From: Rhodanobacter thiooxydans
Lineage (GTDB): Bacteria; Pseudomonadota; Gammaproteobacteria; Xanthomonadales; Rhodanobacteraceae
Direction: 5' to 3'
DNA length: 64,000 bases
Assembly (NCBI RefSeq): GCF_021545845.1
Contig: NZ_CP088923.1
Location: 3,100,001-3,164,000, forward strand
The translations under genes were made by a program, and so were the position numbers. Positions 22,283 through 35,516 of this stretch are shown piece after piece (within the stretch, counting starts at the first letter, position 1; every line of letters starts with the position of its first letter). A model generated the notes under the pieces. The model saw only the letters and a list, made by a program, of their open reading frames with translations. It was not told where the DNA came from and did no database searches.

Positions 22283-24705
22283 CGACAACCTCAAGGAGGA
22301 AATCCCGCTGGCGCATCCTGCGTGCCCTGTCGCTGGCCTTGCTGGCGCTGCTGGCGATTGCCTTCGTCGTGCTGTGGTGGCTGCTCGCCGGCAGCCGTGC
22401 GCAGCTTGACGGCACGCGCCAGGCCGCTGGCCTGACAGCGCCGGTCAGCCTCGACCGCGACGCGCTGGGCACGGTCACCCTCGCGGGGAAAAGCCGCGCC
22501 GACCTCAGCTACGCGCTGGGCTACGTGCATGCGCAGGAGCGCTTCTTCGCGATGGACCTGATGCGTCGCGTGAGCGCCGGCGAGTTGTCCGCGCTGGTCG
22601 GGCCGGCCGCGCTGAAGGCCGATCTTGACCATCGCCGCCATCGCCTGCGCGCCGTGGCCGCGGCCGTCTACGCGCAATTGCCGCCCACGGAGCAGCACCA
22701 GCTGGATCGTTACCGCGACGGCGTCAACGCCGGCCTGGCCGACCTGCGTGTGCGGCCGTGGGAATACCTGCTGCTGGGCAGTCGGCCGCAGCCGTGGCGT
22801 TCGGAAGACAGCATGCTGTTGATCGCCGCGATGTACCTGGACTTGAACAGCGACGGCCGCAACGAACGCGAACTGCGCATGGCGCAGATGCGCGCGGTGC
22901 TGCCCGGCGCACTGGTGGATTTCCTGCTGGCGCCCGACCCTGACTGGGAGGCACCGCTGAGCGGACAGCTGTCGCACCCGCTGGTGGTTCCGGACGCTGA
23001 CGTGTTCGACCTGCATCGGCTGCCGACCGCTACGGCCTCGACCAGCCTGGCCGCCGCGCTGGCGCCGGCACTGGATGCGCCACGCGCCGGCAGCAACAAC
23101 TTCGCCGTGACCGGTACGCTCACCGGCAACGGCGCAGCGATGCTGGCGAACGACATGCACCTGGGCCTGCGCGTGCCGAACATCTGGTTCCGCACCCGCC
23201 TGCGTTATCCCGATCCCACCGCACCGGGCAGCCAGCGTGACGTCAACGGCGTCAGCCTGCCAGGCACGCCGGCGATCATTGTCGGCTCCAACGGCCAGAT
23301 CGCCTGGGGCTTCACCAACAGCTACGGCGACTGGCAGGACTGGGTACGCGTGTTGCGCGATCCGGCCGATGCTTCCCGCTACAAGGTGCCTGATGGCTGG
23401 GCCCGCGTCGAAAGCCACGACGAGCACATCCAGGTCAAGGGCCAGCCCGACACCATCCTCAAGGTCGAGGACACCCGCTGGGGTCCGATCATGGGCGCCG
23501 ACACCGACGGCACGCCACTGGCGCTGGCCTGGGTCGGCGGCCGCACGCACGGCTACAACCTCGAGCTGATGCAGCTGGAGCGCGCGCCCGACGTGGCCGC
23601 GGCACTCGAGCTGGCGCCGCGGCTCGGCATACCGCCGCAGAACCTGCTGGTGGCCGATCGCGCCGGCCACATCGGCTGGACCATCGTCGGCAACAGCATC
23701 CCGCTGCGCGCCGGCATCGATCCGCGACTGCCGTCGGACTGGTCCAGGCCCGGCAGCGGCTGGCAGGGCTGGGCCACGCCGGCGCAGTACCCGCGCATCG
23801 AGAACCCCGCCGACGGCCGGTTGTGGACGGCGAACAACCGCACCGTCGACGGCGAGGCGCTGGCCCTGCTCGGCAACGGCGGCCATGACCTCGGCGCCCG
23901 CACCCAGCAGATTCGCGACGACCTGCGTGCCCGCGCCAGCTTCACCCCCGGCACCCTGCTCGACATCCAGCTCGACGACCGTGCGCTGTTCCTCGCCCGC
24001 TGGCAGCGCCTGCTGCAGGACACCCTGGCCGACAGCCGCGACCCTTCACTGCAGCCGCTGCGCCGACTCACCGCCACATGGCACGGCCGGGCCGCCGTCG
24101 ACAGCGTCGATTACCGCCTGGTACGCGCCTTCCGCAACCAGGTCGGCGAAGCGGTGCTGGCGCCGTTCGCCGCCCGGGTGCAGCAGCGCTACGCGGATTT
24201 CAGCTGGCCCCGCGAGACCAGCGCCGAGGCGGCGGTGTGGGCCCTGGTCCATCAGCAGCCGGCGGCATGGCTCGATCCGAAATATCCGGATTGGCATGCC
24301 CTGCTCATCGACGCGGCGAAGCAGGTGGCGGACGAACTCGGCCGGCAACCCGGCGGTCTCGCTGCGCGCAGCTGGGGCGAACAAAACCGCACCGGCATCC
24401 GCCACCCGTTGTCCGCCGCGTTGCCATCGTGGCTGGGCCACTTCATCGACATGCCCGACCAGCCGATCTCCGGCGACAACAACATGCCGCACGTCGCCGC
24501 GCCCGGCTTCGGTGCCTCCGAGCACCTGGTCGTGGCTCCCGGCCAGGAGGCCCGCGGCATCCTCAACATGCCCGGCGGCCAGAGCGACCACCCACTGTCA
24601 CCGTATTTCGGCGCGGGCCACGCGGACTGGGTCGAGGGAAGGCCCACGCCACTGCTGCCAGGGCCGGAGCAGCACCGCCTGATCCTGGTGCCGATGCGCC
24701 CCTGA
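22279..24705 (+). CDS. Penicillin acylase (Ntn-hydrolase) family protein
   Basis: An 808-residue precursor of the penicillin G acylase/AHL acylase family, cut autocatalytically into alpha and beta chains. An N-terminal membrane or signal segment (about residues 12-35) is followed by the alpha part with YALGYVHAQERFFAMDLMRR. The beta-chain nucleophile is S272 in RAGSNNFAV. Later motifs are MLANDMHLGLRVPNIWF and SNGQIAWGFTNSYGDWQD. It could act on beta-lactams, acyl-homoserine lactones or other amides. Codons from about 453 to near the end are nearly identical to 33230-34265, but the final ~14 residues differ between the copies. Confidence 0.88.
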   Translation: MTTTSRRKSRWRILRALSLALLALLAIAFVVLWWLLAGSRAQLDGTRQAAGLTAPVSLDRDALGTVTLAGKSRADLSYALGYVHAQERFFAMDLMRRVSAGELSALVGPAALKADLDHRRHRLRAVAAAVYAQLPPTEQHQLDRYRDGVNAGLADLRVRPWEYLLLGSRPQPWRSEDSMLLIAAMYLDLNSDGRNERELRMAQMRAVLPGALVDFLLAPDPDWEAPLSGQLSHPLVVPDADVFDLHRLPTATASTSLAAALAPALDAPRAGSNNFAVTGTLTGNGAAMLANDMHLGLRVPNIWFRTRLRYPDPTAPGSQRDVNGVSLPGTPAIIVGSNGQIAWGFTNSYGDWQDWVRVLRDPADASRYKVPDGWARVESHDEHIQVKGQPDTILKVEDTRWGPIMGADTDGTPLALAWVGGRTHGYNLELMQLERAPDVAAALELAPRLGIPPQNLLVADRAGHIGWTIVGNSIPLRAGIDPRLPSDWSRPGSGWQGWATPAQYPRIENPADGRLWTANNRTVDGEALALLGNGGHDLGARTQQIRDDLRARASFTPGTLLDIQLDDRALFLARWQRLLQDTLADSRDPSLQPLRRLTATWHGRAAVDSVDYRLVRAFRNQVGEAVLAPFAARVQQRYADFSWPRETSAEAAVWALVHQQPAAWLDPKYPDWHALLIDAAKQVADELGRQPGGLAARSWGEQNRTGIRHPLSAALPSWLGHFIDMPDQPISGDNNMPHVAAPGFGASEHLVVAPGQEARGILNMPGGQSDHPLSPYFGAGHADWVEGRPTPLLPGPEQHRLILVPMRP
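23635..24670 (+). repeat. Direct repeat unit 1 (acylase 3' half)
   Basis: About 1.03 kb here matches 33230-34265 in the same orientation with only scattered single-base differences by eye. The match starts at CCGCAGAACCTG and fades in the last ~40 bases of the gene. The two copies enclose the 24.7-33.2 kb accessory segment and offer a substrate for homologous recombination. Confidence 0.92.
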
Positions 24706-25035
24706 TCCGCACGCAGGTCTGGAACCCGCCGCCGCAAGCGCATCGACATGCGTTCGCCCACAACACCTTCGTTTTGGCCGGGAGAGCCACTGCGTCTCCG
24801 AACAGCGCGGCAAGCAGCAGCACAATACCGACCAGACTTGTTGTCCACATCATCGTGCGCAGGTAGGGATGCCTGCCGCATAGGCCGGAACATAGGCCAG
24901 CCATGCCAAGAGGTAGAGTTGGGCGCTCAGCGCGGTCATGCCATCGTGGTGCTGCAGCGCATAACCGACCAACACGACCGCGGCGAACAGCGGAAAGGTT
25001 TTCAGGAGATTGCCCGCTGGCGCGATCGAATCATA

Positions 25036-26160
25036 CCAACTTGCGTTCAATAAACTAGATATACTCTTGCCATCGCCTGGAAGGGAGATGGCAAGTGAAG
25101 ACACTGATCGGCAACGACAAGGCCACGGTGAAGCGACTGGCGGAGCGACTGAAGCAAGCCGGATCGCATCGCGAGTACCAGCGAATCCAGTGCGTGCTGC
25201 TACGGGCCACACTGGGGAGCTCGGCGCAGGAGATTGCCCAGATCCTGGGATGGTCGGCGTCGACCGTCCATACGATCCATTCGCGCTGGGCCAAGGAAGG
25301 TGAGGCGATCTTCGCGCTGAACGAGCGTGGCGGCCGCCATCATCAGTACTTGAGCGAGGAAGAGGAGAAGGCACTGCTGGAGCCGTTTGTGCGACAGGCC
25401 GAGATGGGTGGGATGTTGCGTGCCTTGGACATCCGGCAGGCATATGCGGCACGGGTCGGCAAACCGGTGGCGCTGTCGACGATCTATCGCCTGTTGGAGC
25501 GGCATGGTTGGCGCAAGGTGATTCCACGGCCCCGCCACCCGAAGGCAGACGTTTCGGCCCAAGCGGCATATAAAAAAACTGCGGCGCTGCGTTCGCGCCG
25601 AGGTCGCGCGTCAGGCTAGGTGCGGTCGCCCGGTTCGCTTGATGTTCCAGGACGAGGGGCGGTTTGGCCTGCTCGGCTCGCCACGGCGATGTTGGGCGCC
25701 CTCACCGACACGTCCTGTCGTGGGGGCGCGGCTGGAACGTCAATACATCTACGCCTTCGCCGCCGTGAGTCCTCACGACGGCGTCCTCGACAGTCTCATC
25801 TTGCCGTGGGTCAATGCCGAGGCCATGTCCCTGTTCCTGGCCGAAGTGGCCGGTCGCCATCCTGGCGAGTTCATTCTCATGGTCATGGATCAAGCCGGCT
25901 GGCATCAGGCAAACGCCCTGGTCGTTCCCGACTCCATGCGCCTGGTGTTCCTTCCCCCCTATAGCCCCGAGCTCAACCCAGCCGAGCATCTCTGGAAGGC
26001 CTTGCGCGAGCAAGACTTCGGCAACGAGGTCTTCAAGAACCTCGATGCCGTCGAAACGACCCTAGCCGGCGGATTGCGCGCACTGGAAGTCGATCACGAC
26101 CAAACCCAGTCTTTGACCGGCTTCAAGTGGATAACTTCTATATCATTGAACGCAAATTAG
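25036..26160 (+). mobile_element. IS630-family insertion sequence
   Basis: A 1,125-base element bounded by TA dinucleotides at 25034-25035 and 26161-26162, the normal IS630/Tc1 target duplication. The terminal inverted repeats are CCAACTTGCGTTCAAT at the left and CTAATTTGCGTTCAAT (complement of the right end), with two mismatches. It carries one transposase encoded in two overlapping frames. It has inserted into a MAPEG gene. Confidence 0.9.
25095..26160 (+). CDS. IS630-family transposase, two frames joined at an A7 tract
   Basis: The first frame (25095-25619, 174 residues) holds the HTH region: QEIAQILGWSASTVHTIHSRW and RQAYAARVGKPVALSTIYRLL. The second carries the DDE core: MFQDEGRFGLLGSPRRCW, FILMVMDQAGWHQ, and LPPYSPELNPAEHLWKALRE. 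The frames meet at AAAAAAA (25572-25578). Shifting +1 there gives KKLRRCVRAEVARQARCGRP leading straight into the second frame. IS630 elements often use such slippage, so the element may still be active. The stop codon lies in the right terminal repeat. Confidence 0.85.
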
Positions 26161-26387
26161 TATCACACGCTGATCTTGCCGAGCGGTTTCGATCCTACGT
26201 CCCGCGGACCGGCAGCCCAGCCCTCGCTAACCGATCGCGCCGATGGCGGCAACCGCAATCTGCGCCAGCCCCAGCACGACACTCCAGACCAGCATCCGCA
26301 ACTCGATACTCATCGTGCTTTCCCTTGTTGTGGTGGAGGGATGATGAAGCCGCGCATTCGTCCGTGCCGGGAGTACTCGCCGCGCGG

Positions 26388-26942
26388 CTATTGCCCGGGC
26401 GGCGGCAGCTGGCAGAACCCCTGGGCCGGCACGTCGAGGGCGCTGTTGAATTTGCTCGACATGTTCTGGAAGGCGATCAGCCCGGTCAGTTCCACGAGAG
26501 CGTCGTCGTCGAAATGTTTCGACAGCCGCGCCACCAGCTCGTCCGTCACCTGGCGGTCGCTGCAAGTCATCGCTTCGGCGTATTCCAGCGCTGCCGCCTC
26601 GACGTCGTCGTACAGGTCGCTATGGCGCCAATCGGCCAATGCCAGCACTTTCTCCATCGAGCCGGTGCGCTTGGCGAGCGTCGCGGAATTGACATCCACG
26701 CAGAAACGGCACCAATTGATCTGCGACACCCGCACGGTCACCAGCGAACGCAGTGCCGGACTCAGCGGCGACCGCTTCCTGTCCAGCACGCCGTACAGGA
26801 GCGCGACCGCCATGAACATCCGCGGAGACCTGCCCCAGAGCAGCCCCGGCTTCAGCACCTGCCCGTATTTCCTCTTCTGCTTCCAGAAGAACAGGCCCAG
26901 AATCCAGGGGTATTGCCGCAGCGGCTTCTCCGGGACTCTCAT
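26388..26942 (-). CDS. Carboxymuconolactone decarboxylase-like protein
   Basis: A 184-residue CMD/AhpD-like helical protein with the redox motif INWCRFCVDVNSA (CxxC) and an N-terminal hydrophobic extension, PRMFMAVALLYGVLD. It is the third gene of the cytochrome operon: its ATG at 26942 overlaps the stop of the 758-residue cytochrome gene (ATGA), so translation is coupled. The start is set by this overlap; upstream in-frame codons lie within the other gene. It may reduce a peroxide or disulfide for the operon, but this is inference. Confidence 0.82.
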   Translation of the reverse strand: MRVPEKPLRQYPWILGLFFWKQKRKYGQVLKPGLLWGRSPRMFMAVALLYGVLDRKRSPLSPALRSLVTVRVSQINWCRFCVDVNSATLAKRTGSMEKVLALADWRHSDLYDDVEAAALEYAEAMTCSDRQVTDELVARLSKHFDDDALVELTGLIAFQNMSSKFNSALDVPAQGFCQLPPPGQ

Positions 26943-29215
26943 TTGGCCACCGCCTGCTTGTCGGGTTCGGCTCCGTGCAGTCCGCGGATGTAGTCCACCA
27001 CCCTGCCGATCTCGTCGGCGGTGAGCACGCCGCCCCACGTCGGCATGCCGACACCGACGCGACCGTCGGTCACCGTCCGGATGACGCCGTCGCGGCCGGT
27101 AAGCTGCACGAACGAGTTGTCGATCAGCGTCGGCCCTTCGGTGCCGACGCCGCCCTTGCCGTGGCAGACCTCGCAGTTGGCGGCAAAAATCTGCTCGCCG
27201 GTGACCGGATGCGGACGCGCCGGCGCGGCGACCGGGTGTTGCGCCGGCTGGCCCAGATCGAAGGCGACCTTCGACGCAAAGACCGAGTCGATCCCGCTGG
27301 TGCCGACGAACGGGATACCGTCGCCGTCGCTGTCCGTGTCGCCAGTGCGCACCTGCCTGATGTCCTCGCCGGTGTAGAGGTCCTCGGCCTGCTGCAGGCC
27401 GCTGGAATCCACGGCCTGGACGAAAAACTTCTTGAAACGGTCGAGCAAATGCATGTCGCGGTCGACCAGCACCAGCTCGCGCAGCGCGCCGAGCGTGGCC
27501 GCCACGTCCACCGGCGTGTAGACCACCTGATCCGATTCCGGCGTATTGCGGTACAGCCAGGCCGATTTGTCCCAGAATTTGCTGTTCCAGTTCGCGCTGG
27601 CCCGATGCGCCGCATCCAGATAGCGTTTGTCGCCCAGTGCGTGGTATGCCACCAGCATGGCGCGGATGCCGAAGGCCTGGCTGGTGCTGTCCGGTTCACC
27701 CGACGGCCTGGCGCCGGGAACCTGGTACTCGGAAACGAAGGAACCGTCCGCCGCCTGGGCGCCGAGCAGAAAATCGGCCTGCTGCTGCAGCAACTGTTTG
27801 GCATCCTGCTCCCGGGCCGGTTCCAGGTCCATGTTTCGCCCGAAGTCGTCGAGCGCCACCATGGCCAGGGCCAGATCCGAAATCCTGACGCTGTGGCCGG
27901 GGCCCTTGCCGGGCTGCCAGGACGACACCAGTACGCCGTCGACCCGATGCATCGCCTTCATGTTGTCGAGCACGACATTGGCCATGTCCTGCGCCAGCAG
28001 CGCATATTTCTGCGGCAGGATGCTGCCGTCGTAAGGGGTCTGGTACCCGAATACGTTGTTCCAGTTGTCGCGCTTGCGAGGGTTGGAAAAGTCGAAGTAT
28101 TCCGAGGTCGCCCATAGCCAGGACGCCTGGTCCCACAGCTGGCTGGAAACGTCCTTCGTCGAGAAATCGTACTGGCGCACCGGAAGGTCGCCGATGTAGG
28201 TCAGGGTCGGATGGATCTCGTGCGGAATGTAGCGCAGGCCCGCGTCGGGGTGGTAGCTACGCGGATCGATGCCGACCAGCTTCAGCGTGTGGAACGTCGG
28301 CGGCAGATGGGATTCGCGGTGCGAAGGATCGACGAACAGTGCCGCCTTGGTCATCATCATGGTGGAGAGGGAAGCCAGGGCAAGCATGCCGCCGCGGAAC
28401 CCGTCCTCGGCATTGTTGCCAAGGAACACCTCGCCGGGGAAATCGATGTCGGTATGGTTGCGGCGCAGGAAGAACTTGGACCACAGCACCTTTTTAAGCA
28501 TGGCCTGGCCGACACCGCCCATATCGATGTTGTGGTCCATGCTGTCGTTGGACCAGCGCAGCGATTCGAAATCGTCGAGGTAGGTTGGACGTCCGTACTT
28601 GTCTATCTTGGTATTCACGGGCATCACAAATTTCGGATCGCCCGACTTGAACTCGAGCATGGTCGGCACCGCGTTGTCGAACTGGTACGGCATGCCGGAG
28701 CGCTTCAGAAAGGATCCGACCACATCCGACAGCATCACCTGCTTGTTGGACTCCACCAGCTCGCCGCGATCGCGGCCGAACCGGTTGAGACGGGTTTGCG
28801 ACTTCGCCAGCAGATCGATGTACGGACCGTTGACCAAGCCGATGCCCAGGCGGGCGCGGATCGTGGGTCCGACCAGGTTGTAGCGCGAGTACCAGTACGC
28901 CTCGATATTGGCGATGTACGCAAACTGGCGGTCATGGGCGATCGGCAGCTTGCGTTCACCGGCGCGCAGGAAGAATTCCGTGCCCGACAGGTACATCTCG
29001 TTGGCGAGATATTCGCCTTCATTGGTGTTGAAGCGGCGGTCGAGTACATGGCCCCTCATGCCGCTCTTCAGGCTGGACAGATCCAGCTGGGGATTGGCCT
29101 GCACCACGCGCACGCGGCGGCCATCGGGCCAGGTCACGTAATCGAAAGCCACAGCGGCGGACACACATCCCGCCAGCAGGGCCGAAGCAATCAGGAAACG
29201 AAGATCGAGGCGCAT
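26939..29215 (-). CDS. Large exported protein with C-terminal cytochrome c domain
   Basis: A 758-residue protein with a signal peptide (hydrophobic residues 8-22, cleavage near AVAF). Its long N-terminal part (about 25-660) matches no family I can name. Helical segments such as DLALAMVALDDFGRNMDLE, LLGAQAADGSFVSEYQVPG and AFGIRAMLVAYHALGDKRYL suggest an alpha/alpha-barrel like those of carbohydrate-active enzymes. The C-terminus is a class I cytochrome c with CEVCH at C681-H685 and the axial methionine M724 in GMPTWGG. An aspartate run (GDTDSDGDGIPFVG) just before it resembles a calcium loop. It starts four bases after the cytochrome-barrel gene stop. Confidence 0.78.
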   Translation of the reverse strand: MRLDLRFLIASALLAGCVSAAVAFDYVTWPDGRRVRVVQANPQLDLSSLKSGMRGHVLDRRFNTNEGEYLANEMYLSGTEFFLRAGERKLPIAHDRQFAYIANIEAYWYSRYNLVGPTIRARLGIGLVNGPYIDLLAKSQTRLNRFGRDRGELVESNKQVMLSDVVGSFLKRSGMPYQFDNAVPTMLEFKSGDPKFVMPVNTKIDKYGRPTYLDDFESLRWSNDSMDHNIDMGGVGQAMLKKVLWSKFFLRRNHTDIDFPGEVFLGNNAEDGFRGGMLALASLSTMMMTKAALFVDPSHRESHLPPTFHTLKLVGIDPRSYHPDAGLRYIPHEIHPTLTYIGDLPVRQYDFSTKDVSSQLWDQASWLWATSEYFDFSNPRKRDNWNNVFGYQTPYDGSILPQKYALLAQDMANVVLDNMKAMHRVDGVLVSSWQPGKGPGHSVRISDLALAMVALDDFGRNMDLEPAREQDAKQLLQQQADFLLGAQAADGSFVSEYQVPGARPSGEPDSTSQAFGIRAMLVAYHALGDKRYLDAAHRASANWNSKFWDKSAWLYRNTPESDQVVYTPVDVAATLGALRELVLVDRDMHLLDRFKKFFVQAVDSSGLQQAEDLYTGEDIRQVRTGDTDSDGDGIPFVGTSGIDSVFASKVAFDLGQPAQHPVAAPARPHPVTGEQIFAANCEVCHGKGGVGTEGPTLIDNSFVQLTGRDGVIRTVTDGRVGVGMPTWGGVLTADEIGRVVDYIRGLHGAEPDKQAVAK

Positions 29216-29219
29216 GGAA

Positions 29220-30866
29220 TTACTCCCCTCCCCGGTAAAGACCCGAGGCGAATGTATAGGTGAACGAGGCGTTGATCACGTACGGCGGCGACGGTCCCAG
29301 ACTGGGCTTGGCGACGCGCACCAGTGCCCCCAGGGATACCTTGAACAGGGGGTTGGGAATCACCACGACGCTGGCGGACACGAACTGGGTGGTGCCGCCG
29401 GAGAACGACGGACGGTCGATGATCTTGAAGCCGACCGGGGCCGGGCTCGGAAGGCCCGGCATCGGCGGAATCATGCTGGGCGGAATCGGCATGCCGCCGG
29501 ACAGCGGCCCGGTCGTCGCCATGGGATTGATCGGCTGGAAGAGCTTGCCGTCGTAGGAATCCGTCTGCTGGTGAAACCCGAGGTAGGTCAGGTCGAGCGA
29601 GACGTTGTCGTGCCAGATCGGCTTGACGAACGTGACGAACCAGCGCACGACGTCACCCGGATCGACACCGTCGGCCTTCGGCCTGATTTCGTACAGCGAG
29701 CCGACGTGCAGCGCGCCGCGACCGAAGAAGCTGCTGCCTTCCAGCTGGCGGCTCGCGAACACCCCCAGGTAGCCGCCGAGCGTGCCCAGACCGGGCTGTA
29801 GCGGCGCTGGCAGGCGGCCGTCGTTCGAGAACCGCCGGAAGATGCCGTCGCCGATCGTGCTCATGTCCGGGTTTCCGTTGCCGTCGATGGCCGGGAACGG
29901 AAAGATCATCTTCATGCCCATCAGCGATGCGGTGGTGCCGGGGTCGAACTTTTCCTTGTTGGATCCGGTCGGGAACCGCAGACCGGCGACGCCGGCGATG
30001 CCGACCGGGAAATTGCCCTGGTCGACGAACTTCTTTTTCAGGAACACGCTCAAGTCACCGACCGCCGAGGTGCTGCCCTGTGGAAACGCCGAGATCATGT
30101 TGATGAACTGCGGGTTGAGCTCCGCCTGCATCCGCGAACTCTGGATCGGCAGGTTGAAGCGCAGGGTCATGTTGTGGTCCAGTCCGAGGACCAGGTCCAG
30201 GTCCGTGAACTGGCGATTGAGGTGAAAACTGTTGAAGTGCCCCTGGATGTCCAGCTGGCCGGCGACGTCGCTCGCGTCCAGCGCGCCCACTTGGCGGTAG
30301 CCCAGTTGGACGCGCAACGCGCCAGGCGGAAGCACGAAGGCGGATTCGGTCACCGCCGGTTCGTAGACCGGCGGAATGAAGCTCTGGATCTGATCCTGGA
30401 TATTGCCCCGTTGCACCTTCACATACGACTCGTGCACGCCGAGATCCAGATAATTGTTCTCGGGCGACTTGGGGTCGAGATCCGGAGGATTACTCTTGAC
30501 CTCGCCCGTCGAGGTCATGACGACCGGCCGCGCCGGGCGCACGCCGGAGTTCAGTGACGTTAGGTAGAACGTCAGCTGCGCGCGCTCGTCGTCGGTCAAG
30601 TGCAGATTCGGCATGTTAGTGTCGGGCTTGACCGCCGGCGGATCCTTCAGCCACTTGTAGATCCACTCTGCCGACAGGCGGTCGCCGACGTTGTCCAGGA
30701 TCGGCCCCACGTGACCGCCCTGACCGCCGATCGTGTGGCAGCCGGAGCAGCCCTTGCTCTGGAACAACCTGGCTCCCGGCTGCTCCTGTCCAGCCAGCAC
30801 CCCGGCAGGATGGAGCAATGCGAACAGGAGGCTGGCTATAACAAAACGACGATTGAAGAGATGCAT
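29220..30866 (-). CDS. Cytochrome c fused to an outer-membrane beta-barrel
   Basis: A 548-residue protein: signal peptide (cleavage near VLAG, residue 26), cytochrome c domain (about 30-100) and beta-barrel (about 170-548). The heme motif is CSGCH (C40-H44) with axial M85 in NMPNLHL. The remainder alternates polar and hydrophobic residues in strand pairs, for example GALRVQLGYRQVGALDAS, FTDLDLVLGLDHNMTLRFNL and VINASFTYTFASGLY, like phenol-degradation MetA-type outer-membrane proteins. The layout recalls Cyc2 iron oxidases, though the heme domain here is larger and of ordinary class I type. It heads a three-gene operon preceded by an FNR-like box. Confidence 0.82.
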   Translation of the reverse strand: MHLFNRRFVIASLLFALLHPAGVLAGQEQPGARLFQSKGCSGCHTIGGQGGHVGPILDNVGDRLSAEWIYKWLKDPPAVKPDTNMPNLHLTDDERAQLTFYLTSLNSGVRPARPVVMTSTGEVKSNPPDLDPKSPENNYLDLGVHESYVKVQRGNIQDQIQSFIPPVYEPAVTESAFVLPPGALRVQLGYRQVGALDASDVAGQLDIQGHFNSFHLNRQFTDLDLVLGLDHNMTLRFNLPIQSSRMQAELNPQFINMISAFPQGSTSAVGDLSVFLKKKFVDQGNFPVGIAGVAGLRFPTGSNKEKFDPGTTASLMGMKMIFPFPAIDGNGNPDMSTIGDGIFRRFSNDGRLPAPLQPGLGTLGGYLGVFASRQLEGSSFFGRGALHVGSLYEIRPKADGVDPGDVVRWFVTFVKPIWHDNVSLDLTYLGFHQQTDSYDGKLFQPINPMATTGPLSGGMPIPPSMIPPMPGLPSPAPVGFKIIDRPSFSGGTTQFVSASVVVIPNPLFKVSLGALVRVAKPSLGPSPPYVINASFTYTFASGLYRGGE

Positions 30867-31035
30867 GGTCCGTTCTCCACACCGCGTCCTTTCACTTGCA
30901 GATGAAAGTATCGTCGGCGCTAGCTGTAAAAGAAAATCCTAGGAGATGCGACGGATAATCCGCCATACCTTTCGCTATTGGATGTGCTGTCCTGCTGGTG
31001 CGCCGAAATCATCAATGGAACGTAGGTAATTAATC

Positions 31036-31049
31036 TTGATCCGGGTCAA
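31036..31049. promoter_or_regulatory. FNR/DNR-type box upstream of the cytochrome operon
   Basis: TTGATCCGGGTCAA matches TTGAT-N4-ATCAA with one mismatch. Toward the minus-strand operon, a GATGAT hexamer (31013-31008) falls where -10 belongs if the box is centred at -41.5. Toward the plus strand, an extended -10 (TGCGATAAT, 31074-31082) is about five bases too far. Anaerobic or NO-responsive control of the cytochrome operon is likely. Confidence 0.65.
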
Positions 31050-31317: not shown

Positions 31318-31492
31318 ACCCGATCCGCGACGCGCCCTTTGAGAAGTTTTGATTTCACATGGATAGAAAATCAGGTATGCGTGCAAGTCTGGCCTTTCGT
31401 TCCATACTTGCCATCAAGGCAAAAAGGGGTAGCAATACAATAATTTTTTGTCAGGCAAGTGCCCTCGCAAAGCCGGGTGCTTTAGTTGTGTG

Positions 31493-31735
31493 AGCCGCTC
31501 AAAGCGGCTGAATCGGGATCGCTAACGCGATCCCACAGTGCGACGACGGCATTTGGGTATGAACATCACGTGGTACAGGCATTCCCATTGCGTGTGATTT
31601 AAGCTCTCATACTCGTCCATCGGGACTGTGTGCTTGGCGGATCAGCGGCTCACGGACGGAGTTTCCCCGGTGGACTCCCGCATGCGTCAAACTTCTACGG
31701 CCTCCCCGGCAGAGCCGGGGGGACTCCCTTGCTGG
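31493..31735 (-). mobile_element. IS200/IS605-type remnant, internally deleted
   Basis: A 32-codon minus-strand fragment at 31522-31620 reads MDEYESLNHTQWECLYHVMF then IPKCRRRT before diverging into a stop. This is the start of IS200-type TnpA, whose HUH and tyrosine motifs are missing. Hairpins AGCCGCT/AGCGGCT (31493-31509) and CCCCGGC/GCCGGGG (31704-31720) lie at either side, as the ends of IS200 elements are small stem-loops. It looks like an element that lost its middle but kept its ends. Confidence 0.6.
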
Positions 31736-31736
31736 T

Positions 31737-32411
31737 CTAGAACAGATCCAGCAGGAAGTGTCGCGGCGCATGCTTGGAGCGTTGCGTGATCCAACCGACC
31801 ATCGCCCCATAGACGATATGGGCCAGATAGACGGTCGCGGGAAAACGCACCGGAGCGAAATCATGACCGAAGACCCCAGCGCCAATGATGTCCATCACGG
31901 GGCTCAGCATGAAAGCGGTGGCGATGCCCATGGCATACAAGACGCCTACCCACCAACGCTGGTGGCCGAACACCGCGATGTAGATGAACGCGAAACCAAT
32001 GCCGTTCCAGACATGATCACCCCACTCAATCAGGTTCGACCAGAGATCGGGGCCACTCATGAACTGATCGGTCAGCTGCACGCCGATCAGCATGGGCAAC
32101 GAACCGGGCATGGCCTCGAACACCCTGAAACCGATCGAGCGCACCACTTCCATCACCAATGTGCCAAGCACACCGGCAAGCAGCGCCAGCAGGCCCGCGG
32201 AGGTCAAGCGGCGCCAGCGCATGGCGAAAGCGAGCACTACGAAAAACACCCAGGCCACCAATCCCGGCAATATGGCGACTTCGCCAAGGCGGTGCATCGT
32301 GATGATTCCGCTTGCCGAAATGGTGAATGCCAGCGGTGACACCGATGCCGCAGCCAGTGCCAGCAAGGTGGCAAGAAGTTCTCCCAGCGACATCCTCGCA
32401 AAAAGCTGCAT
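31737..32411 (-). CDS. Multi-pass membrane protein of unknown function
   Basis: A 224-residue protein with about six hydrophobic segments, for example LLATLLALAAASVSPLAF, AILPGLVAWVFFVVLAFAM and LLALLAGVLGTLVMEVV. Conserved-looking polar residues in the loops include DHVWNGIGFAFIY and VYLAHIVYGAMVGW. The ATG at 32411 has GGAGG about 11 bases upstream and is preferred to the ATG at 32438. I do not recognise the family. It follows the DUF302 gene on the same strand by 75 bases, so both may be one unit. Confidence 0.7.
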   Translation of the reverse strand: MQLFARMSLGELLATLLALAAASVSPLAFTISASGIITMHRLGEVAILPGLVAWVFFVVLAFAMRWRRLTSAGLLALLAGVLGTLVMEVVRSIGFRVFEAMPGSLPMLIGVQLTDQFMSGPDLWSNLIEWGDHVWNGIGFAFIYIAVFGHQRWWVGVLYAMGIATAFMLSPVMDIIGAGVFGHDFAPVRFPATVYLAHIVYGAMVGWITQRSKHAPRHFLLDLF

Positions 32412-33229: not shown

Positions 33230-34300
33230 CCGCAGAACCTGCTGGTGGCCGATCGCGCCGGTCACATCGGCTGGACCATCGTCGGCAACAGCATCCCGCT
33301 GCGCGCCGGCATCGATCCGCGACTGCCGTCGGACTGGTCCAGGCCCGGCAGCGGCTGGCAGGGCTGGGCCACGCCGGCGCAGTACCCGCGCATCGAGAAC
33401 CCCGCCGACGGCCGGTTGTGGACGGCGAACAACCGCACCGTCGACGGCGAGGCGCTGGCCCTGCTCGGCAACGGCGGCCATGACCTCGGCGCCCGCGCCC
33501 AGCAGATCCGCGACGACCTGCGTGCCCGCGCCAGCTTCACCCCCGGCACCCTGCTCGACATCCAGCTCGACGACCGTGCGCTGTTCCTCGCCCGCTGGCA
33601 GCGCCTGCTGCAGGACACCCTGGCCGACAGCCGCGACCCTTCACTGCAGCCGCTGCGCCAACTCACCGCCACATGGCACGGCCGGGCCGCCGTCGACAGC
33701 GTCGATTACCGCCTGGTACGCGCCTTCCGCAACCAGGTCGGCGAAGCGGTGCTGGCGCCGTTCGCCGCCCGGGTGCAGCAGCGCTACGCGGATTTCAGCT
33801 GGCCCCGCGAGACCAGCGCCGAGGCGGCGGTGTGGGCCCTGGTCCATCAGCAGCCGGCGGCATGGCTCGATCCGAAATATCCGGATTGGCATGCCCTGCT
33901 CATCGACGCGGCGAAGCAGGTGGCGGACGAACTCGGCCGGCAACCCGGCGGTCTCGCTGCGCGCAGCTGGGGCGAACAAAACCGCACCGGCATCCGCCAC
34001 CCGTTGTCCGCCGCGTTGCCATCGTGGCTGGGCCACTTCATCGACATGCCCGACCAGCCGATCTCCGGCGACAACAACATACCGCACGTCGCCGCGCCCG
34101 GCTTCGGTGCCTCCGAGCACCTGGTCGTGGCTCCCGGCCAGGAGGCCCGCGCCATCCTCAACATACCCGGCGGCCAGAGCGACCACCCGCTGTCACCGTC
34201 TTTCGGCGCGGGCCACGCGGACTGGGTCGAGGGAAGGCCCACGCCGCTGCTGCCGGGACTGCCGCAGCACACGCTGGTGCTGCAACCGGCCGCACGCTGA
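33230..34300 (+). pseudogene. 5'-truncated second copy of the penicillin acylase gene
   Basis: The frame carries the acylase sequence from residue ~453 to the stop, nearly identical to 23635-24670. It lacks the signal, the alpha chain and the nucleophile serine, so it cannot make an active enzyme. Its last residues (GLPQHTLVLQPAAR) differ from the full-length copy (GPEQHRLILVPMRP). An apparent start 33 bases upstream lies in the IS256 remnant and is not credible. It is the right-hand direct repeat of the accessory segment. Confidence 0.88.
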
Positions 34301-34369
34301 CGCGCCGACCGGCGTCGACCGATCGGCCGTCCATGCGGCATTCGACCGCACAAATCGCCGCCGGCGCAG

Positions 34370-34383
34370 CTGATCGAAATCAA
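34370..34383 (+). promoter_or_regulatory. FNR/DNR-type box upstream of the nos operon
   Basis: CTGATCGAAATCAA differs by one base from TTGAT-N4-ATCAA. Its centre is about 60 bases before the first nos-operon start, so a transcript starting 41.5 bases downstream would begin about 19 bases before the ATG. DNR/FNR control of nos genes is well known in denitrifiers. Confidence 0.6.
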
Positions 34384-34436
34384 AAGCACCGCCCTGATGG
34401 GCGCGCATGATCCCCGTCCACACGGCGGATTCATTA

Positions 34437-35516
34437 ATGATCAACTGCGACACCGTCATCATTGGGGCTGGCCCGGTCGGCCTGTTCCAGGTTTTCGAGC
34501 TGGGCCTGCTGGGGCTGGATGCGCACGTGATCGATGCCGTACCGCATGCCGGCGGCCAGTGCGTCGAGCTGTATCCGGACAAGCCGATCTACGACATCCC
34601 GGCGCTGCCGGTGTGCAGTGGGCGCGAGCTGATCGAGCGCCTGCAGCAGCAGATCCGCCCGTTCGCGCCGCAGTTCCACCTGGGTCACACCGTCACCTCG
34701 CTGCAGCGCATGGACAACGGCCGCTTTCACCTGCAGACCAGTGGCGGTCTGGCCTTCGACGCCGGCGTGGTGATCATTGCCGGCGGCCTGGGCGCGTTCG
34801 CGCCGCGCACGCTGGACCTGCCGGAAGCCGCGCCGCTGGTGGGCCGCACGCTGCACTACAAGGTGACGCAGCCGGCGCTGTGCGACGACCAGGACATCGT
34901 GATCGCCGGCGGCGGCGACGCAGCGCTGGATTGGGCGCTGGCCCTGGTCGAGCGGGTGCGCAGCCTGGTGCTGGTGCACCGCTCGTCCAGCTTCCGCGCG
35001 GCACCGGCCAGCGTGGCGCGCATGCAGGCGCTGTGCGACGAGGGCCGCATGCAGTTCTGCGAAGGCGACATCGTCGGACTGGAGACGGCCGCTGGCGCGC
35101 TGTCGCAGGTGCGCGTGCGCACACGCAGCGGCATGGTCCAGCGCATCGAGGCGTCGCATCTGCTGGTGTTCTGGGGCCTGCATCCGGCGCTGGGGCCGAT
35201 CGCCGACTGGGGACTGGCGCTGGAGCGCCAGCAGCTGGTCGTGGATCCGTCGACGCTGCAGACCTCCGTGCCCGGCATCTTCGCCGTAGGCGACATCAAT
35301 ACCTATCCCGGCAAGAAGAAGCTGATCCTGTCGGGTTTCCACGAAACCGCGCTGTGCGCGTTCGCCGCGCATGCGCACCTGCATCCTGGCGACAAGGTGA
35401 ACCTGCAGTACACGACCACCAGCCCGGCACTGCAGCGGCGCCTGGGCGTGCGCGATGCCAAAGGCGCCGATGTCGTGGCACAACCGCCGTCAAGGGTCGA
35501 AGCCAGCGCGGCCTGA
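34437..35516 (+). CDS. Ferredoxin/flavodoxin-NADP+ reductase (thioredoxin reductase-like type)
   Basis: A 359-residue flavoprotein with the FAD loop VIIGAGPVGLFQVFELGLLG, the NADP loop IVIAGGGDAALDWALALVE and the second FAD motif IFAVGDINTYPGKKKLILSG. It lacks the CxxC of thioredoxin reductases, which places it with TrxB-like ferredoxin-NADP reductases. It heads the nos cluster and could feed electrons to NosR's iron-sulfur centres or reduce flavin for ApbE/NosR; both ideas rest on context. The start at 34437 (MINCDTVIIGAG) is preferred over 34407. Confidence 0.85.
   Translation: MINCDTVIIGAGPVGLFQVFELGLLGLDAHVIDAVPHAGGQCVELYPDKPIYDIPALPVCSGRELIERLQQQIRPFAPQFHLGHTVTSLQRMDNGRFHLQTSGGLAFDAGVVIIAGGLGAFAPRTLDLPEAAPLVGRTLHYKVTQPALCDDQDIVIAGGGDAALDWALALVERVRSLVLVHRSSSFRAAPASVARMQALCDEGRMQFCEGDIVGLETAAGALSQVRVRTRSGMVQRIEASHLLVFWGLHPALGPIADWGLALERQQLVVDPSTLQTSVPGIFAVGDINTYPGKKKLILSGFHETALCAFAAHAHLHPGDKVNLQYTTTSPALQRRLGVRDAKGADVVAQPPSRVEASAA

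Follow-up and report, generated by a model that had tools for sequence, protein, structure and literature searches.

Cyc2 proteins carry a single CxxCH cytochrome N-terminal to an outer-membrane barrel and, according to the sections of PMC8406198 drawn on here, are defined by the motif AXPXFAR[Q/K][T/Y] before CXXCH and are thought to function with one heme by admitting Fe(II) into the pore; MtrCAB/MtoAB systems, according to the same sections, combine ten hemes with a 26-stranded barrel. COG4313 channels, exemplified by Pput2725 (4rl8), have a lumen closed by an N-terminal segment (PMC4493636, in the sections drawn on). Here we describe a pair of adjacent genes from Rhodanobacter thiooxydans, P1 and P2, that share features with these systems and lie, with a third gene, P3, on the minus strand of a 64,000-nt stretch of DNA (the window, in which all coordinates are given). 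P1 encodes a cytochrome c fused to a predicted outer-membrane barrel, and P2 encodes a secreted toroid protein with a C-terminal cytochrome c. The sequence comparisons indicate that P1 and P2 are a genuine pair, conserved and built from known folds, and no such pair appeared among the matches listed in the open-access literature on cytochrome-porin fusions, COG4313 channels and cytochrome-carbohydrate-enzyme fusions.

The three genes are closely packed: a 4-base gap separates the P1 stop from the P2 ATG, and the P2 stop and P3 start overlap as ATGA (Table 1). An earlier note on this DNA had described a 548-residue monoheme cytochrome-barrel fusion, a 758-residue protein with a C-terminal cytochrome c, and a CxxC-containing CMD gene overlapping the second as ATGA, and these descriptions are borne out. 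P1 matches Pfam family Cytochrom_C (1.1e-9), with CxxCH at C40-H44 and Met ligand M85, and has a predicted C-terminal barrel; P2 matches Cytochrome_CBB3 (6.7e-13), with CxxCH kept, at C681-H685, and Met ligand M724; P3 matches CMD (1.8e-11) and has the motif CRFC. Export signals were assessed by eye; for P2 we prefer ordinary export to a lipoprotein, because LAGC is missing in its nearest relatives (P0002, P0003 and P0011).

The pairing of P1 with P2 recurs in other genomes. Relatives were gathered into 79 P2 clusters and 65 P1 clusters, and since the protein searches scored only the approximately 8000 candidates that share most words with the query, these counts are lower bounds. Exactly the same longest-contig size as in a P1 cluster was found for 21/79 P2 clusters, all of them among the 49 close clusters (own included) and none among the 30 distant ones, and a control in which sizes were jittered by ≤50 bases gave 0.4 matches on average and 3 at most. 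Direct reading of two of these contigs shows the pair with a 4-base gap in L003 (metagenome-assembled genome REEB218) and with a 4-base overlap on contig 19 of genome G787. P1 and P2 distances across the 21 pairs are correlated (r 0.82; 0/5000 permutations as high), which, at the level of sequence, shows joint inheritance and not contact. Of the three-gene co-occurrence that the earlier note had set as a test, the P1-P2 part, a conserved cytochrome-bearing partner for the fusion, is supported.

Heme sites are conserved beyond chance on both partners. In alignments of 76 P2 rows (without the short P0046, P0048 and P0049) and 57 P1 rows (without P0137-P0144, which match the cytochrome only), window row counted, CxxCH is kept in 63/76 and 50/57 rows and the Met ligand in 63/76 and 51/57 rows, respectively. 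The seven P1 rows lacking CxxCH comprise two short ones (P0130, P0131) and five barrels without cytochrome (P0132-P0136); the 13 P2 rows lacking it include at least one short piece, P0079 (561 aa). One of the five cytochrome-less barrels comes from a Fuerstiella metagenome-assembled genome, and Fuerstiella also has a separate protein, P0071, that joins a toroid to a cytochrome; their linkage is conjectural. Because Fuerstiella has both, the pairing may extend to Planctomycetes, with heme on one partner only.

The distribution of P2 was assessed in genome sets that overlap one another. P2 is present in its own genome and in 0/35 other same-genus genomes, and therefore was probably gained by acquisition; it is present in 1/60 genomes overall, in its own genome only for the class (1/369) and the phylum (1/299), in its own genome and G787 for the order (2/398), in 0/274 genomes around G640 (same class as the window genome), and, in the order to which L003's genome belongs, in that genome alone (1/85). 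P1 is present in 1/39 genomes of G787's family, G787 itself. One scan of genome contigs returned L003 only, and viral contigs gave 12 pattern matches, none a relative. A further protein search found at least 192 proteins, the best 120 of which include Acidobacteria, Gemmatimonadota and others, many without a cytochrome domain in Pfam. Plasmids gave six records, five being a cytochrome-less toroid at 26-27% identity (Aeromonas four, Anoxybacillus one) and one a cytochrome-only match; the Aeromonas toroid as query gave eight. Cytochrome-less plasmid toroids with 26-27% identity to P2 stand at L008:11929-13929 and L009:11875-13935, and the Anoxybacillus toroid adjoins a gene annotated as a beta-propeller lactonase.

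The C-terminal half of P1, for which the earlier note had set a barrel fold as a test, is a barrel in the predicted model. The model has 12 strands of ≥10 residues and seven short strands, has 4rl8 and FapF as its best solved-structure matches, agrees with the 12-stranded COG4313/Phenol_MetA_deg type, and does not fit a 16-stranded OprO/OprP-like barrel; the strand count is a prediction, and the lack of OprP from the match list proves nothing alone. Residues from 161-171 onward align, in alignment only, with the chain starts of 4rl8 and FapF, and the segment at approximately residues 156-182, before the first strand, is well conserved, including in P0132-P0136. PF13557 matches 19/57 P1-family rows at E ≤0.1 (best 4.5e-6), the window P1 itself being unmatched. 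P1 differs from COG4313/Phenol_MetA_deg channels and FapF in carrying a cytochrome c before the pre-strand segment, and no cytochrome fusion to a COG4313-type channel was among the matches listed in our open-access literature searches.

Comparison with Cyc2 shows a common general plan, comprising an N-terminal export signal (by eye), a single CxxCH and a fused outer-membrane barrel, and to that extent the likeness suggested in the earlier note stands. However, the Cyc2 motif, searched as P.FAR[QK][TY], is present in 0/57 P1 rows (50 with CxxCH), and the Cyc2-type PXL four residues past CXXCH is absent in the window protein, the one compared for this spacing, in which 10 residues separate CXXCH from PIL. 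P1 differs further in its cytochrome c, a complete class I domain with Met ligation that resembles NorC and cbb3 subunits, in a barrel nearest another family, and in a recurrent toroid partner. We therefore reject Cyc2 membership, because the motif is lacking and the barrel is of another type. MtrCAB/MtoAB systems likewise combine cytochrome and outer-membrane barrel, but with a decaheme cytochrome in their wider barrel, as against one CxxCH per protein and a 12-strand-type barrel here, and membership is rejected. The conduit across the outer membrane that the earlier note had envisaged finds no support: with one heme per protein and a barrel of this type, nothing would span the membrane.

The helical domain of P2, previously called large and unknown, has a known fold: structure comparison identifies the (alpha/alpha)6 toroid known from sugar epimerases and glycoside hydrolases. 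The same toroid characterizes the AGE/cellobiose 2-epimerase superfamily, in which a catalytic His pair acts with Arg and Glu. Conserved His, Arg and Glu are present in the P2 alignment, and acidic, His, Tyr and Trp residues are invariant in 76/76 rows. P2 differs from N-acylglucosamine/cellobiose 2-epimerase and GH76/GH105 toroids in its approximately 10% identity to them, its large insertions, its C-terminal cytochrome c and its recurrent outer-membrane partner.

A low-oxygen-type box precedes P1. The sequence TTGATCCGGGTCAA has one mismatch to TTGATNNNNATCAA, a pattern with two matches at ≤1 mismatch in the window versus 0.33 expected (4/100 shuffles had two). The FNR/ANR consensus admits either purine (A or G) where the second half-site begins. 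With that base relaxed accordingly, the 200 bases before P1 contain a site with 0 (window), 1 (L003) and 1 (G787) mismatches, and shuffles were as good in 1/2000, 17/2000 and 119/2000 cases, respectively, making the G787 box weak on its own. A box of the FNR-like type that the earlier note saw beside P1 is present at 3/3 loci; taken together, the boxes favour FNR/ANR-type control, and the pair may be induced when oxygen is low.

Anatomy, conserved hemes and toroid residues, linkage and box are read from sequence and predicted models, and from them we infer the remaining steps of a mechanism. We propose, as a tentative reading that falls somewhat short of probable, that P1 and P2 form a two-gene module in which a channel and a toroid, each with a cytochrome c, convert a substrate at low oxygen. 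P1 would be a COG4313-type outer-membrane channel with its cytochrome c on the periplasmic side, because the cytochrome precedes the first strand. At low oxygen a glycan or hydrophobic compound would enter via P1, the P2 toroid would bind and convert it, and the P2 heme would exchange electrons with periplasmic respiration by way of the P1 heme or a soluble carrier; which way they flow is the least certain step. Electron transfer across the membrane is unlikely with only one heme on so narrow a barrel, and therefore the substrate would have to reach the heme or P2. A bolder claim, which we regard as possible but doubtful, is that the pair represents a second class of outer-membrane fusion between cytochrome and channel, evolved separately: two single-heme cytochromes would wire a toroid of sugar-enzyme fold to low-oxygen respiration, and the (alpha/alpha)6 fold would do, or feed, redox chemistry.

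Other readings of the pair assign the hemes or the channel different roles. If a polymer or fibre leaving through P1, as in FapF amyloid export, were processed by an epimerase-, lyase- or hydrolase-like P2, the hemes would serve assembly, anchoring or redox gating; FapF is the model for this export or envelope-modification reading, but no synthase, fibre or glycosyltransferase family is found among the 10 L003 open reading frames scanned (three without family, possibly in wrong frames) or, by eye, in the G787 downstream flank, and the sugar-polymer-type genes seen by eye upstream in G787 start approximately 7 kb off, and we consider it unlikely. A Cyc2-like system, in which an external donor such as Fe(II) would enter the barrel and pass electrons to the P1 heme, with P2 as an accessory, would fit the common plan and the view that one heme suffices when Fe(II) enters the Cyc2 pore (PMC8406198, same sections); it is rendered distinctly improbable by the missing motif, the 12 long strands with COG4313/FapF nearest, the NorC/cbb3-like cytochrome and a constant partner of sugar-enzyme fold. 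Redox-gated uptake, with non-catalytic hemes that report or set the state of a P1 plug and P2 as a substrate-binding protein, draws on the conservation of the pre-strand segment even in cytochrome-less barrels and on the comparable segment closing the COG4313 lumen (PMC4493636, same sections), but the invariant P2 residues look catalytic, beyond mere binding, and we judge it very unlikely.

That the unit comprises three genes, with the CMD/AhpD-like protein P3 detoxifying peroxide from the pair, is suggested by the ATGA overlap, and P3 may be co-transcribed with the pair in the window genome. However, P3 relatives at 75-76% protein identity occur in G010 and G020 (2/21 same-genus genomes, DNA search), both without P2, and the pair loci of G787 and L003 have no P3-like gene, these genomes having only 29-39% relatives located elsewhere. 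The L003 locus is not a clean test of P3, because P2 is followed there by an open reading frame that we take to be transposase-like, leaving G787 as the only clean test. The three-gene co-occurrence entertained in the earlier note thus finds no support; the sequences give no sign that P3 belongs to the conserved unit, and we reject the three-gene module, considering the peroxide model highly improbable.

The pair lies within an approximately 8.6-kb island bounded by two copies of a 1041-bp penicillin acylase gene stretch, 98.6% identical, and relative G002 has a single unbroken match across 33230-35500. The island stands before genes for a flavoprotein, ApbE, a protein that we take from its domains to be NosR-like, NosZ, NosD, an ABC ATPase and NosL. 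The nosZ propeller family PF18793 is present in 0/14 controls and only 1/3 pair-bearing genomes; we therefore reject a functional tie of the pair to the nos cluster and consider the neighbourhood probably incidental. A second FNR-like box, CTGATCGAAATCAA (34370-34383, one mismatch), lies directly in front of the genes for the flavoprotein, ApbE and the NosR-like protein. Neighbours of the pair vary by locus: a TolC/HlyD/RND efflux set in L003; a methyltransferase-like open reading frame and other genes (by eye) in G787; and, in the island upstream of P1 (31737-33044), genes for a DUF302 protein and for a membrane protein weakly matching DUF6789, neither of which is found in the L003 or G787 stretches. 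An IS630-type element (25031-26188), with at least five further near-identical copies in the genome, interrupts a small gene (24796-26348); in several same-genus genomes the matches to the two pieces of this gene lie near each other. A dispersed repeat (31467-31751) has 83-90% similar pieces at two other genome sites and in relatives.

Table 1. Positions of the P1-P2 pair, its domains and associated features in the window.
Feature	Position	Strand	Basis or remark
P1, cytochrome c fused to outer-membrane barrel, 548 aa	29220-30866	-	sequence, Pfam, predicted model
P1 class I cytochrome c domain, residues 28-105; CxxCH 30735-30749, Met85	30552-30785	-	
P1 barrel and leading segment, residues 171-540, COG4313/FapF type	29247-30356	-	predicted model, structure comparison
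P2, secreted toroid protein with C-terminal cytochrome c, 758 aa	26939-29215	-	
P2 (alpha/alpha)6 toroid, residues 54-657	27245-29056	-	
P2 cytochrome c domain, residues 671-745; CxxCH 27161-27175, Met724	26981-27205	-	
P3, CMD/AhpD-like protein, 184 aa, CRFC motif	26388-26942	-	judged outside conserved unit
FNR/ANR-type box TTGATCCGGGTCAA, ~170 bp before P1 start	31036-31049	.	pattern match
1041-bp direct repeat, 3' part of penicillin acylase gene	23635-24675 and 33230-34270		

A cytochrome fused to a barrel is usually taken, after Cyc2, to signify iron oxidation. The P1 fusion recurs in metagenomes, on another barrel and tied to a carbohydrate-type fold, and therefore cytochrome plus barrel alone should not be taken to signify iron oxidation. 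If the redox reading of the pair is true, a known hydrolase/epimerase fold would gain an electron-transfer role, and outer-membrane transport would be coupled to respiration in a new way.
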